Shown: positions 29,817 to 44,709 of the stretch, in pieces
Position numbering within the stretch: position 1 is the stretch's first letter
Layout: each line of letters opens with the position of its first letter
Assembly (NCBI GenBank): GCA_017397765.1
Contig: JAFQIB010000063.1
Location: 1-45,024, forward strand
DNA length: 45,024 bases
Reading direction: 5' to 3'
DNA from: Clostridia bacterium
GTDB lineage: Bacteria > Bacillota > Clostridia > Christensenellales > Aristaeellaceae
Program-made: the position numbers and the translations under genes
The notes under the pieces: model-generated
Database searches by the model: none
Told to the model about the DNA's origin: nothing
What the model saw: the letters and a program-made list of their open reading frames with translations, nothing else

Positions 29817-30680
29817 TTATTTGATACCAGAGTGGGCCATGGTGTTCATGACCTTGCTCTGGCAAAGAATGAACAAAATCAGGTTGGGCAGGAACATGAT
29901 CAGCGACGACGCAGCCGCCATGCCCTGTCCGGCAACGGAATTGGTGTTACTGGACAGCGTGCTCATGTAGAAGGTGAGCGTGCGCATGCTTTCCTTGTTG
30001 GTGTACATAGTAGAGGTTTCCGTGTTGTTCCACACAGACTGGAAGGCCAGGATGGCGACCGTCGCCAACGCAGGCTTGATCATCGGCAGGATGATCTTAT
30101 GGTAGACTTTGAAGTAACCGGCGCCGTCCACAATGGCGGCTTCGATGAGGGAATCCGGCACCTGATCAGTGAACTGCTTGACCAGGAACATGCCCACTGG
30201 CATCGCCACAAGGGGCAGGATGTGGGCGAAATAGGTATTGATCATGCCAAGGTTGTCCACCAGGAGGTAACGGGGAATGATGACCGCAATGGGTACGAAC
30301 ATCATGGCAAGGTTGTTGATCTCCATCAATGTGCTCTTGGCGCGGAAGCGCAGCTTGCTCAGCGCAAAGGCGGCCATGGAGGACATCACCATGCTCAGAA
30401 ACACCACCGCCACAGTCACGATAAGGCTGTTGAAGATGTAGCGGCTGATGGAGATGCCGCCTGCACTCGCCTGACGTGCCAGCCGGGTGAAGTTGTCCAG
30501 CACCGGGTTTTCCACCAGGAAACGGGGCGGGAAAGCGAAGAGCTCCTCAATGGGCTTGAAGGCGTGGTTGATGATGAACACGATGGGGACGGCCATAAAA
30601 ATCGCAAGCGGAACAAGCACCAGATACATGGGGATCTGGTTCGGATGGAAATGATCCGGATTGAAACGAGTCTTGCGCAT
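29817..30680 (-). CDS. MalG-type carbohydrate ABC transporter permease
   Basis: 287 residues with six membrane helices; the EAA loop that contacts the ATPase is LIEAAIVDGAGYFKVYHKIILPMIKP near residue 190. It has the short MalG-like N-terminus (IPMYLVLVPLAIFMAVPIVFIINHAFKP). The start is ATG 30680 after GGAAGG; a longer frame beginning at 30851 would run through several hairpins without a ribosome site and is rejected. It is separated by 226 nt of structured DNA from the substrate-binding protein gene upstream, and followed after 30 nt by the secreted GH43 genes. It is the second MalG-type permease of the operon; which of the two MalF-type proteins it pairs with is unknown. Confidence 0.92.
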   Translation of the reverse strand: MRKTRFNPDHFHPNQIPMYLVLVPLAIFMAVPIVFIINHAFKPIEELFAFPPRFLVENPVLDNFTRLARQASAGGISISRYIFNSLIVTVAVVFLSMVMSSMAAFALSKLRFRAKSTLMEINNLAMMFVPIAVIIPRYLLVDNLGMINTYFAHILPLVAMPVGMFLVKQFTDQVPDSLIEAAIVDGAGYFKVYHKIILPMIKPALATVAILAFQSVWNNTETSTMYTNKESMRTLTFYMSTLSSNTNSVAGQGMAAASSLIMFLPNLILFILCQSKVMNTMAHSGIK

Positions 30681-30906
30681 GATGGCCACCTTCCTTTTGG
30701 TCAGTATTATTGTGGAGGGATCAGGAGAGCAGGCAGTGCGTTGCCTGCCCTCCCATCCAGTCGGCCAGCCCTCGACGTAAAGTCGAGTGCTGGCTACGCT
30801 CTGCCAATGCAAGCATTGGCTATCGCTAGTCGGGCCGATGCCCGACCTCAATGGAAGTGCTGCTGCACAGCAAAGGAGGCGACTGTGCAGATGCGTTCAG
30901 CGAATC
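30681..30906. other. 226-bp structured region between substrate-binding protein and permease
   Basis: Five hairpins fill most of this gap: 30729-30748, the three of the repeat at 30760-30853, and 30864-30889 (TGCACAG with CTGTGCA). The first is GCAGGCA with TGCCTGC around a 6-nt loop. No open frame with a ribosome site and no promoter is apparent. The arrangement is like the structured spacers that protect the upstream substrate-binding protein mRNA in some sugar-transport operons. Confidence 0.65.
30760..30853 (-). repeat. Three-hairpin structured repeat, copy A
   Basis: Read on the minus strand: CATTGAG; hairpin 1 GTCGGGC-ATCG-GCCCGAC (18 nt); linker TAGCGATA; hairpin 2 GCCAATGC-TT-GCATTGGC (18 nt); linker AGAGCGTA; hairpin 3, GCCAGC+CTCGAC with GTCGAG+GCTGGC around a TTTAC loop; then CGAC. 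Copy B at 44170-44260 has the same order and the same segment lengths up to hairpin 3, with conserved linkers and paired changes in both 18-nt stems. Confidence 0.7.
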
Positions 30907-32250
30907 TTACTCGCCCAGCAGGACCTTCAGGTGATCGGCAACGCCCTGATCAGCCACAGCCTGCAGTTCAGCAGCCACGTCAGCAGCAGTCAGCTCGCCG
31001 CGGAGGATCTTGCCGTCGATGTCGTTGCTGTTGTAGTAGGCTTCGATGGTGCCCCAGCCGGGAGCAACGGGCCAGTTGGAGGGAACGATGTTCACGCCGC
31101 GCTCCAGGAAGCCGCGGTAGAAGGGCACCAGATCCTCAGTGGCGTTGTCCAGCAGGTCCTGCCACACTTCGGGAGTGGACACGACGGGCATACGGGACAC
31201 GGCATAGCCCAGAGAACGGTAGGTCTCCTGGCGCTTCAGAGCAGCCTGGGGGCCCCAAGACATCCACTTGGACAGTTCCCAAGCTTCACGGGGATACTCG
31301 GTGGAAGCGGAGATGACGCCGTTGTCAACGATAGCCAGCTCGCCCTTGCCATCGCCCATGGGCAGGGGGTAGTACACCCATTCGCAGCCGGTCTCGTCCT
31401 TGCGGAAGGTCTGGAACTGAGCCAGGGTCCAGGGCCAGTCAATGTGCATGGCGGTGCGGCCCATGCCGGGAGGCCAAGCGCCGGGATCGCCCAGAACGTT
31501 GGTCTTCTCTTCTTCGGTCATCCACTCACAGATCTTGTTGTTGATCATTTCGGCGCGGGTCTCAACAGCGTTGATCCAGACCTCGTCGAAGTTGTACTTC
31601 TCGCCGTCCCAGCCGAACTTGCCCTGGTTGCCGTTGTAAGCAGCGGGGAACAGATCGGTGAACAGAGGGTTGGAGATGCCGAAGTTGTAATCCTCGGGGT
31701 GGCTCAGCTCGTCAGCCAGCTCAAAGTAGTCTTCCCAAGTCCAGTTGATGTCAGGAAGCTCCACGTTGTACTGTTCGAACAGGGTCACGTTCATGTACAT
31801 CATGTGGGGGAACATGACGGCGGGGTAGGAGTAGTTCTTGCCGTCGATCTTGGCAGACTCACGCATGGCGGGATAGAGCTCCTGCGCGTCGGGGTCGTTC
31901 TCCATGTAGTAGGTGATGTCCAGCGCCCACTCGTTGGCAACGGCGTTGGGCACGTTGAACACCCAGAACACGTCGGGCAGCTTGCCCTCGGAGGCCAGAT
32001 TGGTCAGGCCCTGATCCCAGGTGCCCTGATCAATGGCAACAAACTCAACGTTGATGTTGGGATAGGCAGCCTCGAACTGAGCGATCAGGGCCTCGATGAC
32101 CTCGGGCTCGCCAGCTTCGGCCTGACCCCAATGGGCCACGGTCAGGGTAATGTTCTCGGTGGTCATGGGCGGCAGACCTTCTTCGGCCATCGCCGGAACC
32201 AGGGACAGCATCATGACGCATGCCAGAACCAGAGAAAGCAGTTTCTTCAT
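30907..32250 (-). CDS. Extracellular solute-binding protein of a carbohydrate ABC importer
   Basis: 447 residues, family 1 (MalE-like) solute-binding protein: LTVAHWGQ opening, GKLPDVFWV, the NVTLFEQYNVELPDINWTWEDYFELA segment near residues 155-180 and AWELSKWMSWGPQAAL near residue 330. The signal peptide MKKLLSLVLACVMMLSLVPAMA appears to be cut after AMA; the internal LVLAC is too early and has the wrong residue before Ala-Cys for a good lipobox, so the protein would not be lipid-anchored. It should bind an oligosaccharide released by the secreted GH43 enzymes. The start is ATG 32250 after AAAGGAG. It lies between two structured spacers (30681-30906 and 32251-32452), so its message could accumulate independently of the permeases. 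Confidence 0.9.
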   Translation of the reverse strand: MKKLLSLVLACVMMLSLVPAMAEEGLPPMTTENITLTVAHWGQAEAGEPEVIEALIAQFEAAYPNINVEFVAIDQGTWDQGLTNLASEGKLPDVFWVFNVPNAVANEWALDITYYMENDPDAQELYPAMRESAKIDGKNYSYPAVMFPHMMYMNVTLFEQYNVELPDINWTWEDYFELADELSHPEDYNFGISNPLFTDLFPAAYNGNQGKFGWDGEKYNFDEVWINAVETRAEMINNKICEWMTEEEKTNVLGDPGAWPPGMGRTAMHIDWPWTLAQFQTFRKDETGCEWVYYPLPMGDGKGELAIVDNGVISASTEYPREAWELSKWMSWGPQAALKRQETYRSLGYAVSRMPVVSTPEVWQDLLDNATEDLVPFYRGFLERGVNIVPSNWPVAPGWGTIEAYYNSNDIDGKILRGELTAADVAAELQAVADQGVADHLKVLLGE

Positions 32251-42546: not shown

Positions 42547-42612
42547 TGATCAACATCCACTTGCGTTGTCATTGTCACAACGAATGTCAATGCTCACTTC
42601 GTCAGTTGATCA
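42547..42612. repeat. 8-bp inverted repeat at the end of the relaxase gene
   Basis: TGATCAAC (42547-42554) and GTTGATCA (42605-42612), the latter covering the relaxase stop codon. The 50 nt between contain a further CATTG/CAATG dyad. It could be a weak terminator or an element end; no matching copy is seen elsewhere in the window. Confidence 0.3.
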
Positions 42613-44061
42613 TTGTACATACCGATCCGGCCTCGTCCGCTTATTCTCCTGAATGAATTCGCGTTTAACAACCTCCAACCGACGCACTTCCTCCTTCATA
42701 TCTTCCAGCTGATAATCCAACATAAATTGCTCCTTTTCCAGATACTCCAGAGCTGCCTTCCATCCCTTGTAATCGATCTTCTCACCGTCATCCTGGCAGC
42801 GGTGCAAGACAGACGCCGCCTGTTTGTATTGGCGCAGTTCATACTCATACTTTCGTTCAAATCCACCGCGCTTTTCCTCCGGCAGCTTCTCCCATGCGCG
42901 GTAATGCTTCTGGTATTTCTTCCACTTTTCATAGGATTCGATCCGGACGCTCAGTTCAAGAGAAAGATCATGATTTTCCTTCCGCTTGCTTTTCAGACCG
43001 TAGAACTTCGTGTTGACGGTCTGAATTGCCGCCAGACAGGACGCAGCATCCGTGATGCTGTACTCCTGCATGATGGACAGCAGCCCTGTGCTGTCGCGGA
43101 GGCGATGATCCTTGCGATTGGGCTGTACGCTGGAGGCAAGGATGTTGGACGCGAGCTTGAACCGCAGGCTCTCCCTGGATACGTCTTCGCCTTGCTCGAT
43201 CAGTAGTTCATCCTTCTTTTTCGCATACTGCGCCCACGCATTCAGTCGGGCCAGTCGTGCTTCCAGCTGACAGAGCAGCTTGTTCTGCTGGCGAATCTCC
43301 CGATTCTTTTCGCCAACCTCCGTGGGAATGCCGCGCTTCTCCATGACACGGGCATCCGGCCCTTCGTGTACCATGGGGATGCGCTGTACACCCTGATCTG
43401 CATAGCTCCGAGGATCAACAAAGCCCTGCGTGAATCCAGCTTCACGCAGGGCTTCATTGATAGCATCGGCAGCAGCGGCACGCCAGCGTTCCGCATTGCC
43501 ACGGTCATCCCAGTCAGTTGTACAAATCTTTCGTGTTTTCCAGCGTCCTTTCTGCTTGGCAGGGATGCGATTACCTTCAGCGTCAAGGATGTACTCCAAC
43601 CGGCTCTTGTCGCCCCACTTTCCATCCGGGGTCAGTGGACGCATGGTCAGCAGGATGTGAGCATGTGGATTGCCATCTCCTTTGTCGTGGAAGGCAACGT
43701 CGGCACACATGCCCTTGTCCACAAAGTTCTCCTGTACATATTTCCGGATGAGGGTAATGTTTTGCTCATGGTTCAGCTCGGCAGGTAGTGCCAGCTCAAT
43801 CGACCGGGCGAGCTGGGCATTGGCTTTGGTTTCGTTCCACTCAACGCTGTTCCAGAGAAGAGTACGGTCAGCGTATTCCGGCGGAGCATGAGCGGGCAGC
43901 ATGACCTCGGTGTAGATGACATGCCGCTTCCGGGTGTAGTCATGGGTAACCCCGTCCCAGGTATTTTCCATTTTCGTGCCGCTGATGTAGGCAGAGGCAG
44001 CAACGGCAGAGCGACCTTTATTCCGAGATACTATTTTGGTATGGCTATGAAAGAATTCCAT
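42610..44061 (-). CDS. MobQ-type (MobA/MobL) relaxase
   Basis: 483 residues. It nicks oriT and attaches to the DNA 5' end to start conjugative mobilization. The catalytic tyrosine is probably Y25 in SAVAASAYISG, the same position as in RSF1010 MobA; the metal-binding histidines are H133 and H135 in GNPHAHILLTMRPL, with H at about 124 (VAFHDKGDG) before them. The relaxase domain covers about residues 1-230; the rest is coiled-coil rich (REIRQQNKLLCQLEARLARLN and the C-terminal LEKEQFMLDYQLEDMKEEVRRLEVVK). No primase or helicase domain follows. The start is ATG 44061 after AAGGAGG; upstream in-frame codons have no ribosome site. It depends on a type IV secretion system in trans unless one is encoded beyond the window. 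Confidence 0.92.
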   Translation of the reverse strand: MEFFHSHTKIVSRNKGRSAVAASAYISGTKMENTWDGVTHDYTRKRHVIYTEVMLPAHAPPEYADRTLLWNSVEWNETKANAQLARSIELALPAELNHEQNITLIRKYVQENFVDKGMCADVAFHDKGDGNPHAHILLTMRPLTPDGKWGDKSRLEYILDAEGNRIPAKQKGRWKTRKICTTDWDDRGNAERWRAAAADAINEALREAGFTQGFVDPRSYADQGVQRIPMVHEGPDARVMEKRGIPTEVGEKNREIRQQNKLLCQLEARLARLNAWAQYAKKKDELLIEQGEDVSRESLRFKLASNILASSVQPNRKDHRLRDSTGLLSIMQEYSITDAASCLAAIQTVNTKFYGLKSKRKENHDLSLELSVRIESYEKWKKYQKHYRAWEKLPEEKRGGFERKYEYELRQYKQAASVLHRCQDDGEKIDYKGWKAALEYLEKEQFMLDYQLEDMKEEVRRLEVVKREFIQENKRTRPDRYVQ

Positions 44062-44169
44062 TCGTTCCTCCTTATTGGCTCCCTGTGGGAGCATCGTTCT
44101 TGGGGTATGGGGCTTGCTCCATCGCGGCGAAGTCCGCAATGTTGCCCCGCAGGGCGCACGACATACGCG

Positions 44170-44260
44170 CATAGAGGTCATGCTTCAGCATGACGAGCGA
44201 CAGCGATTGCTTGCAATCGCCGAGCGAAGCCCGGGGAAGCGCCAGCTTTCACGGGCCGAC
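44170..44260 (+). repeat. Three-hairpin structured repeat, copy B
   Basis: CATAGAG; hairpin 1 GTCATGC-TTCA-GCATGAC (44177-44194); linker GAGCGACA; hairpin 2 GCGATTGC-TT-GCAATCGC (44203-44220); linker CGAGCGAA; hairpin 3 GCCCG (44229-44233) with CGGGC (44252-44256) and an inner AAGC/GCTT; then CGAC. Relative to copy A (30760-30853, minus strand), at least four stem pairs change on both sides at once while the linkers stay nearly constant. Confidence 0.7.
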
Positions 44261-44269
44261 GTATGTATC

Positions 44270-44338: not shown

Positions 44339-44581
44339 TCACCGGCCAGCCGCCAGCTCCTGCATGAAGGCAGAGAACTGGGCGCTGTCCATATGGATGG
44401 TCTGCGGAAAGCAAGCCTCCAGGATGGCTCCGTGTTCGCAGAGCCGGTGAGTACGAGCCTTCCGCTGCTTCTCCTTTTCGCGGTTGTCGGTAATGATTTT
44501 CCTGTGCTGCTCCTGAACGGTTTTCAGTTCGTCAGGATCTTGGGGCATATTCGCCAGCAGTTCGTCGATGTTGATCTTCAT
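44339..44581 (-). CDS. Small DUF3847-like mobilization-module protein
   Basis: 80 residues: MKINIDELLANMPQDP, a charged helix (EQHRKIITDNREKEKQRKARTHRL) and a C-terminal part RLCEHGAILEACFPQTIHMDSAQFSAFMQEL. The R-x-H-R-L-x-x-x-G-A-x-L-E arrangement is characteristic, from memory, of DUF3847 proteins found just upstream of MobA/MobL relaxases in Firmicutes elements. The function is not established; a DNA-binding accessory factor at oriT is plausible from the basic helix. The start is ATG 44581 after GGAGGAG; an ATG 42 nt further upstream lies inside the operator array. It is transcribed toward the relaxase gene. Confidence 0.72.
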   Translation of the reverse strand: MKINIDELLANMPQDPDELKTVQEQHRKIITDNREKEKQRKARTHRLCEHGAILEACFPQTIHMDSAQFSAFMQELAAGR

Positions 44582-44597
44582 ATATCTCCTCCAGTGG

Positions 44598-44709
44598 TGC
44601 ACCAAAGTGATGCAAGTATGCACCTCTCTGATGCAGATGTCGTTATGTTCATTGATGGGGCTGCATCACTTTGATGCAATTATTGTGGAATGTGCGGCAG
44701 ATTGATGCA
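44598..44709. promoter_or_regulatory. Four 17-bp palindromic operators in helical phase
   Basis: Units start at 44598, 44619, 44662 and 44693: tgcaccaaagTGATGCA, tgcacctctcTGATGCA, tgcatcacttTGATGCA, tgcggcagatTGATGCA. The right half TGATGCA is invariant and the left half varies; the third is a perfect TGCATCA/TGATGCA palindrome. The start-to-start distances of 21, 43 and 31 bp are close to 2, 4 and 3 helical turns. They fill the gap before the DUF3847-like gene. Confidence 0.75.

Follow-up and report, generated by a model that had tools for sequence, protein, structure and literature searches.

Two copies of a three-hairpin element and their surroundings

The window, by which we mean the entire stretch of 45,024 nucleotides that was analysed, carries two copies of a three-hairpin element, one of which (copy A) lies in a transport operon between the genes for a solute-binding protein and a permease, and the other (copy B) between the genes for a MobA/MobL relaxase and a DUF3847 protein (Table 1). 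Both copies had been delineated in an initial annotation made from the sequence alone, and both were recovered where it had placed them and with the parts that it had assigned to them, as were the two adjacent compensated pairs by which their first hairpins differ and the two flipped pairs that distinguish their second hairpins; its naming of the neighbours, a transport operon and a relaxase, is borne out by Pfam. The permease frame extends to 30851 in the list of open reading frames, and the start at 30689 is the one set by a codon-usage script.

Table 1. Features at copies A and B, in window coordinates
Feature	Position	Strand	Basis
Permease gene downstream of copy A	29817..30689	-	Pfam BPD_transp_1; start from codon-usage script
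Copy A, whole element	30760..30853	-	sequence, BLAST; covariance-model match 30760-30851, 101 bits
Copy A hairpin 3 (GCCAGC...GCTGGC), GTA(G) just before	30764..30794	-	fold, covariation
Copy A linker 2 (AGAGCGTA)	30795..30802	-	covariation
Copy A hairpin 2, CUUG-type loop	30803..30820	-	fold, covariation, loop counts
Copy A linker 1 (TAGCGATA), paired with linker 2	30821..30828	-	covarying columns 31-60, 32-59
Copy A hairpin 1	30829..30846	-	sequence, fold
Solute-binding protein gene upstream of copy A	30907..32250	-	Pfam SBP_bac_1
MobA/MobL relaxase gene adjoining copy B	42610..44094	-	Pfam MobA_MobL; start from script
Left arm (ACATACG) of host hairpin, copy B in loop	44161..44167	+	sequence
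Copy B, whole element	44170..44260	+	sequence; covariance-model match 44172-44260, 73 bits (copy B is itself one of the 59 sequences behind the model)
Copy B hairpin 1	44177..44194	+	sequence, fold
Copy B linker 1 (GAGCGACA)	44195..44202	+	sequence, covariation
Copy B hairpin 2	44203..44220	+	sequence, fold
Copy B linker 2 (CGAGCGAA)	44221..44228	+	sequence, covariation
Copy B hairpin 3, non-canonical, end common to empty site	44229..44256	+	fold, empty-allele alignment
Right arm (CGTATGT) of host hairpin around copy B	44260..44266	+	sequence, empty-allele alignment
DUF3847 gene, other flank of copy B	44339..44581	-	Pfam DUF3847 on ORF 44339-44623; start from script

Set against shuffled controls, copy A folds much better (z -6.1, 0 of 200) and copy B moderately better (z -2.8, 1 of 200). 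The element had been called undescribed-looking, and this still holds: the window contains no match to an Rfam 15 family at gathering score, searching permissively around copy A returned sub-threshold matches only, and no earlier description was found in the open-licence literature searched.

Copy B sits in the loop of a hairpin between its two neighbouring genes, and both arms of this host hairpin, or close variants of them, are kept in alleles of the site that lack the element. Its third hairpin, which had been counted as part of the element, is indeed present, but it is non-canonical and its end (GGCCGA; TCGGCC on the other strand) already exists in the empty alleles. As for copy A, the binding protein beside it (window 30907-32250) is 99% identical to the G016:C51 protein, and the ortholog in genome G016 is accompanied by a 100% identical element, whereas other matches in the genus reach at most 42% identity; judging from these identities, the stretch with the binding-protein gene and copy A may have been exchanged recently. 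An empty site for copy A was not obtained, the sole close ortholog, that of G016, carrying the same copy.

A dispersed repeat family nearly confined to one genus

A BLAST search with copy A found 48 places in its own genome (G000) at E values up to 10, itself included, so the resemblance of copies A and B is not due to chance; 16 of 60 genomes, own included, gave matches. With a covariance model (R1) built from 59 chosen copies, at least 71 places were found in G000 and at least 71 in G016. Matches were obtained in 16 of the 18 genomes searched within the genus, in 2 of 18 from elsewhere in the family and in none of 24 that represent other families of the order. Among 391 genomes of the class, with a ceiling of 11 scored candidates per genome, G000 alone matched. 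A pattern scan of species genomes yielded 35 stretches in metagenome assemblies of Clostridia, Clostridiales or Eubacteriales, several of them from gut samples of sheep, goat and roe deer, and the same kind of scan of viral contigs, made with a viral source in mind, yielded none. Among the genomes searched, the element is thus nearly confined to one genus.

A search of the fetched loci with nhmmer gave 198 unique copies in 149 sites. Copies form tandem arrays of up to nine, with head-to-tail periods mostly of 87-94 nt (106 in one array). The discrete structured RNA in two copies that the initial annotation had implied gives way to a dispersed, tandem-forming mobile repeat; where it had named a lack of further copies or uncompensated stem changes as refuting its view, we found many copies, with compensated stems.

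A covarying fold biased to one strand

The element is about 91 nt long (the model length is 91) and consists, in order, of AGG, hairpin 1, TAGCGACA, hairpin 2 with a CUUG-type loop, CGAGCGTA, hairpin 3 (GCCAGC...GATGGCC in the consensus) and GA. The covariation of its stems, proposed from two copies, is borne out both by the 59 chosen copies and by a set of 146 distinct ones. Over 27 pairs in the 59 copies, 93.5% of cells pair and 21 pairs show double changes, with a covariation score of 0.326; shuffling gave 0.104, none of 500 shuffles reaching the observed score, and sliding the pairing gave no more than 0.069. In the 146 copies, drawn from 100 of the 130 copy-bearing loci, the corresponding values are 96.3%, 25 pairs and 0.407, in an alignment made by fitting the copies to the model and biased in its favour.

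The linkers are conserved, as had been stated, but they are not free: they pair with each other and thereby extend hairpin 2 by two covarying pairs inside a conserved A.G/G.A motif. In alignment A2, columns 31-60 hold G-C in 53 of 59 copies and A-U in the other six, columns 32-59 hold C-G in 58 and U-A in one, and the two pairs are flanked by A.G (58 of 59) and G.A (56 of 59). The formation of this short non-canonical helix accounts for the conservation of the linkers.

For further counts, rows more than 92% identical to an earlier row were dropped (150 to 112) and two poorly paired columns were removed. Of these 112 nonredundant copies, 107 keep the A.G partner of the linker helix, 108 have a G-C or A-U linker pair, and 97 carry GTAG at the foot of hairpin 3. 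Over the 25 remaining pair columns, G.U cells outnumber A.C cells by 42 to 9 (binomial 1.7e-6, a value that assumes independent cells, which these are not). This bias, observed directly, indicates that it is the fold of the strand as written that is kept, be it as RNA or as single-stranded DNA.

Sites occupied by the copies

The element lies in frame inside predicted genes at 19 of the 149 sites (8 sense, 11 antisense), as called by the codon-usage script, although a few of the long antisense frames (e.g. L242, L248) may be spurious. Seven of the eight sense copies use one reading frame, whereas the antisense copies use another (8 of 11) or a third (3 of 11). Ten element-bearing proteins were scanned against Pfam, of which seven matched above cut-off, QueA, UDP-galactopyranose mutase and a response regulator among them, two fell below it and one gave no match.

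Usable flanks were available for 142 sites, 29 of which were set aside, by short motifs, as lying in a larger repeat. Of the 113 that remain, 64 are gaps between co-directional genes, where the element is in sense orientation in 48 and antisense in 16 (two-sided binomial p 8e-5); 22 are other two-sided gaps, 19 lie in genes and 8 are beside only one called gene. With larger-repeat sites excluded, 69 sites are followed by a sense gene, and in 29 of them its start codon lies 10-30 nt away; at the opposite end of the element this distance is found for 5 of 37 antisense genes. A tRNA gene is the neighbour at seven sites.

The larger repeat is hairpin-rich, about 300 nt long and inserted at transcription terminators (L026, L029, L048 and L050 in the own genome, L281 in G008). 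A near-copy of the complete terminator hairpin borders it at either end, in the manner of a target-site duplication made up of the hairpin itself, and it carries the three-hairpin element in one of its two loops. Many contigs of the own genome end within this repeat, and the contig-end pairs L040/L035, L053/L055 and L058/L052, which share the same terminator hairpin, probably adjoin. In L276 and L277 (G005), the element lies inside another hairpin-rich repeat (CCTCCCTTGTGTAAAGGGAGG...), which we take to be common in gut Clostridia.

Empty and filled alleles

The element is mobile, as both empty and filled alleles of the same sites exist. Out of 16 aligned rimO orthologs, only that of G016 is filled; its reading frame stays open and the TRAM domain follows the element, and the insertion is not clean, host bases having been lost at the site. 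A gene of G016 for a B12-binding radical-SAM protein holds three in-frame copies, in both orientations; matches from 15 other matching genomes break at the positions of the copies, and all three are absent from six aligned orthologs. The P12 region of rnpB contains a copy in G003 and G005 and none in 15 other genomes (2 of 17 filled). (P12 of G000, G004, G006, G009, G010, G011, G016 and G017 bears a different extension of some tens of nucleotides, with a hairpin of its own, which is not the three-hairpin element.) Eight alleles could be aligned for the copy B site, four with no copy, the window with one and three with two; here too the insertion is not clean, part of the host arm having been lost. 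Likewise, a hairpin loop of the larger repeat is filled in L026, whereas the corresponding loop in L029 lacks the element. Upstream of rpmI, copies occur in two genomes and are missing from others, which we treat as a hint only because the alignment mixed strands.

Target preference and the search for a mover

Target-site duplications are in weak excess, with 1 of 200 permutations as high by one measure and 39 of 200 by another. Neither terminal inverted repeats common to all copies nor, in a search that addressed Y1_Tnp, a parent transposon or an enzyme that could move the element was found. Y1_Tnp matches are present in 6 of the 18 genomes of the genus, and there are none in G016, which carries at least 71 copies and is 84% complete; the element is absent from all seven Y1 loci that were fetched, from genomes that are incomplete. 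A RAYT or IS200 transposase as the mover is thus unsupported. At 1501-1857 of L103, the own genome has a gene for an IS200-like Y1 transposase with an internal stop codon, and the locus is free of the element.

Insertion into hairpin loops was also considered. Several sites with known empty alleles resemble loops, namely P12 of rnpB, the relaxase-side hairpin and the larger repeat. Over the 142 sites of the 149, however, complementarity between the two flanks does not exceed that of permuted pairs (mean 9.80 against 9.37, the highest of 200 permuted means being 10.20) and is lower than at random positions in the same loci (10.82). Only the tail is enriched, with scores of 18 or more in 9.9% versus 3.4%, much of it contributed by copies in the larger repeat; hence we do not claim loop targeting as a general rule, even though individual cases are clear.

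Discussion

We consider it probable that the element is a non-autonomous, protein-less, selfish palindromic mobile element of about 91 nt, akin to the Rickettsia palindromic elements, that resides in Clostridia of the ruminant gut. Its copies would insert at new places, sometimes multiplying head to tail, and would persist wherever a trio of hairpins does little harm: in operon gaps immediately ahead of the ribosome-binding site, between tRNA genes, in P12 of RNase P RNA, in the loops of other repeats and, with the frame kept open, within protein genes. Its movement would presumably depend on an enzyme that acts in trans on a folded single strand, either RNA or single-stranded DNA, and most copies would be passengers. 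In co-directional gaps like that of copy A, between binding protein and permease, the element may increase the stability of the upstream mRNA, an effect also ascribed to REPs, and it could influence operon mRNA mildly. Against this reading stand the failure to find a mover, the weak target duplications and the unclean insertions in rimO and in the copy B allele, and mere passengers would need neither the 48:16 sense bias nor the clustering before start codons.

These last two features, together with the one-strand fold, speak for a cis-acting operon regulatory RNA, in which the trio ends immediately before the ribosome-binding site and tunes how the next gene is translated or its mRNA processed. 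As a rival to a selfish element, such a dedicated regulatory RNA is nevertheless the weaker reading, and we think it unlikely: neighbouring genes are of many kinds, copies also occur in tandem, the element lies in either orientation within protein genes and is found in rnpB, among clustered tRNA genes and next to a relaxase gene, and orthologous sites are empty in related genomes. Strong covariation, it should be cautioned, can mark a selfish repeat and not only a regulatory RNA. The same one-strand fold and the sense bias in transcribed gaps would be explained if the element moved as RNA, its folded transcript entering exposed loops of other RNAs or being reverse-transcribed into single-stranded DNA loops, with the product then recombined into the genome, which would further explain why copies are found in loops of rnpB, the relaxase-side hairpin and the larger repeat; we hold this to be improbable, and, if true, it would amount to a protein-less retro-mobile hairpin.

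The paired changes themselves could conceivably owe more to replication, through template switching or the correction of palindromes, than to selection on the fold; template switching is discussed for the coding palindromes of Nematomorpha mitochondria (PMC6649704). Two columns of hairpin 2 change mostly by flips of the entire pair (C-G to G-C, A-T to T-A), intermediates being few, which makes this a possibility to be entertained, if a doubtful one: symmetric correction does not predict the excess of G.U over A.C, and the short linker helix and its A.G partner have been kept. The two processes may both act. The GTAG at the foot of hairpin 3 recalls, in turn, the GTAG REPs and REPINs, hairpin repeats with GTAG at the hairpin foot that lie mostly between genes; RAYTs are held to move GTAG REPs (PMC3733652). 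That the element is a REP of this type, mobilised by a RAYT (Y1) transposase, appears very improbable in view of the distribution of Y1_Tnp and of the seven Y1 loci described above, and it is longer than the 20-40 bp of REPs, has three hairpins and showed no association with a RAYT.

The closest likeness, in behaviour, is to the Rickettsia palindromic elements, short palindromic repeats found genome-wide, many of them in frame in unrelated genes and with a preferred peptide (PMC10969869). Both reside in frame in unrelated protein genes. Unlike them, the present element is carried by Clostridia, a different phylum, measures about 91 nt as against about 150 bp, has a three-hairpin fold with paired linkers, forms tandem arrays and has copies in rnpB and tRNA clusters. 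It also recalls the coding palindromes of Nematomorpha (PMC6649704) and the mitochondrial GC clusters and double-hairpin elements, protein-less mobile hairpin DNA with merging and shuffling for which RNA-mediated movement has been proposed (PMC4478555), but the latter are mitochondrial, shorter (42 nt for GC42) and of another structure. Small non-autonomous repeats in and between genes are also known as bacterial MITEs, among them the RU elements of enterobacteria (PMC2759123, PMC10969869). They differ from the present element, for which neither terminal inverted repeats common to all copies nor a parent transposon was identified here.

To our knowledge, Rickettsia and Wolbachia are the main bacteria in which protein-coding palindromic elements are known. 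The addition of another bacterial group provides a workable data set on how such elements move: two genomes contain at least 71 copies each, sites that are empty in some relatives are filled in others, rnpB and rimO have taken up insertions, and the fold covaries.
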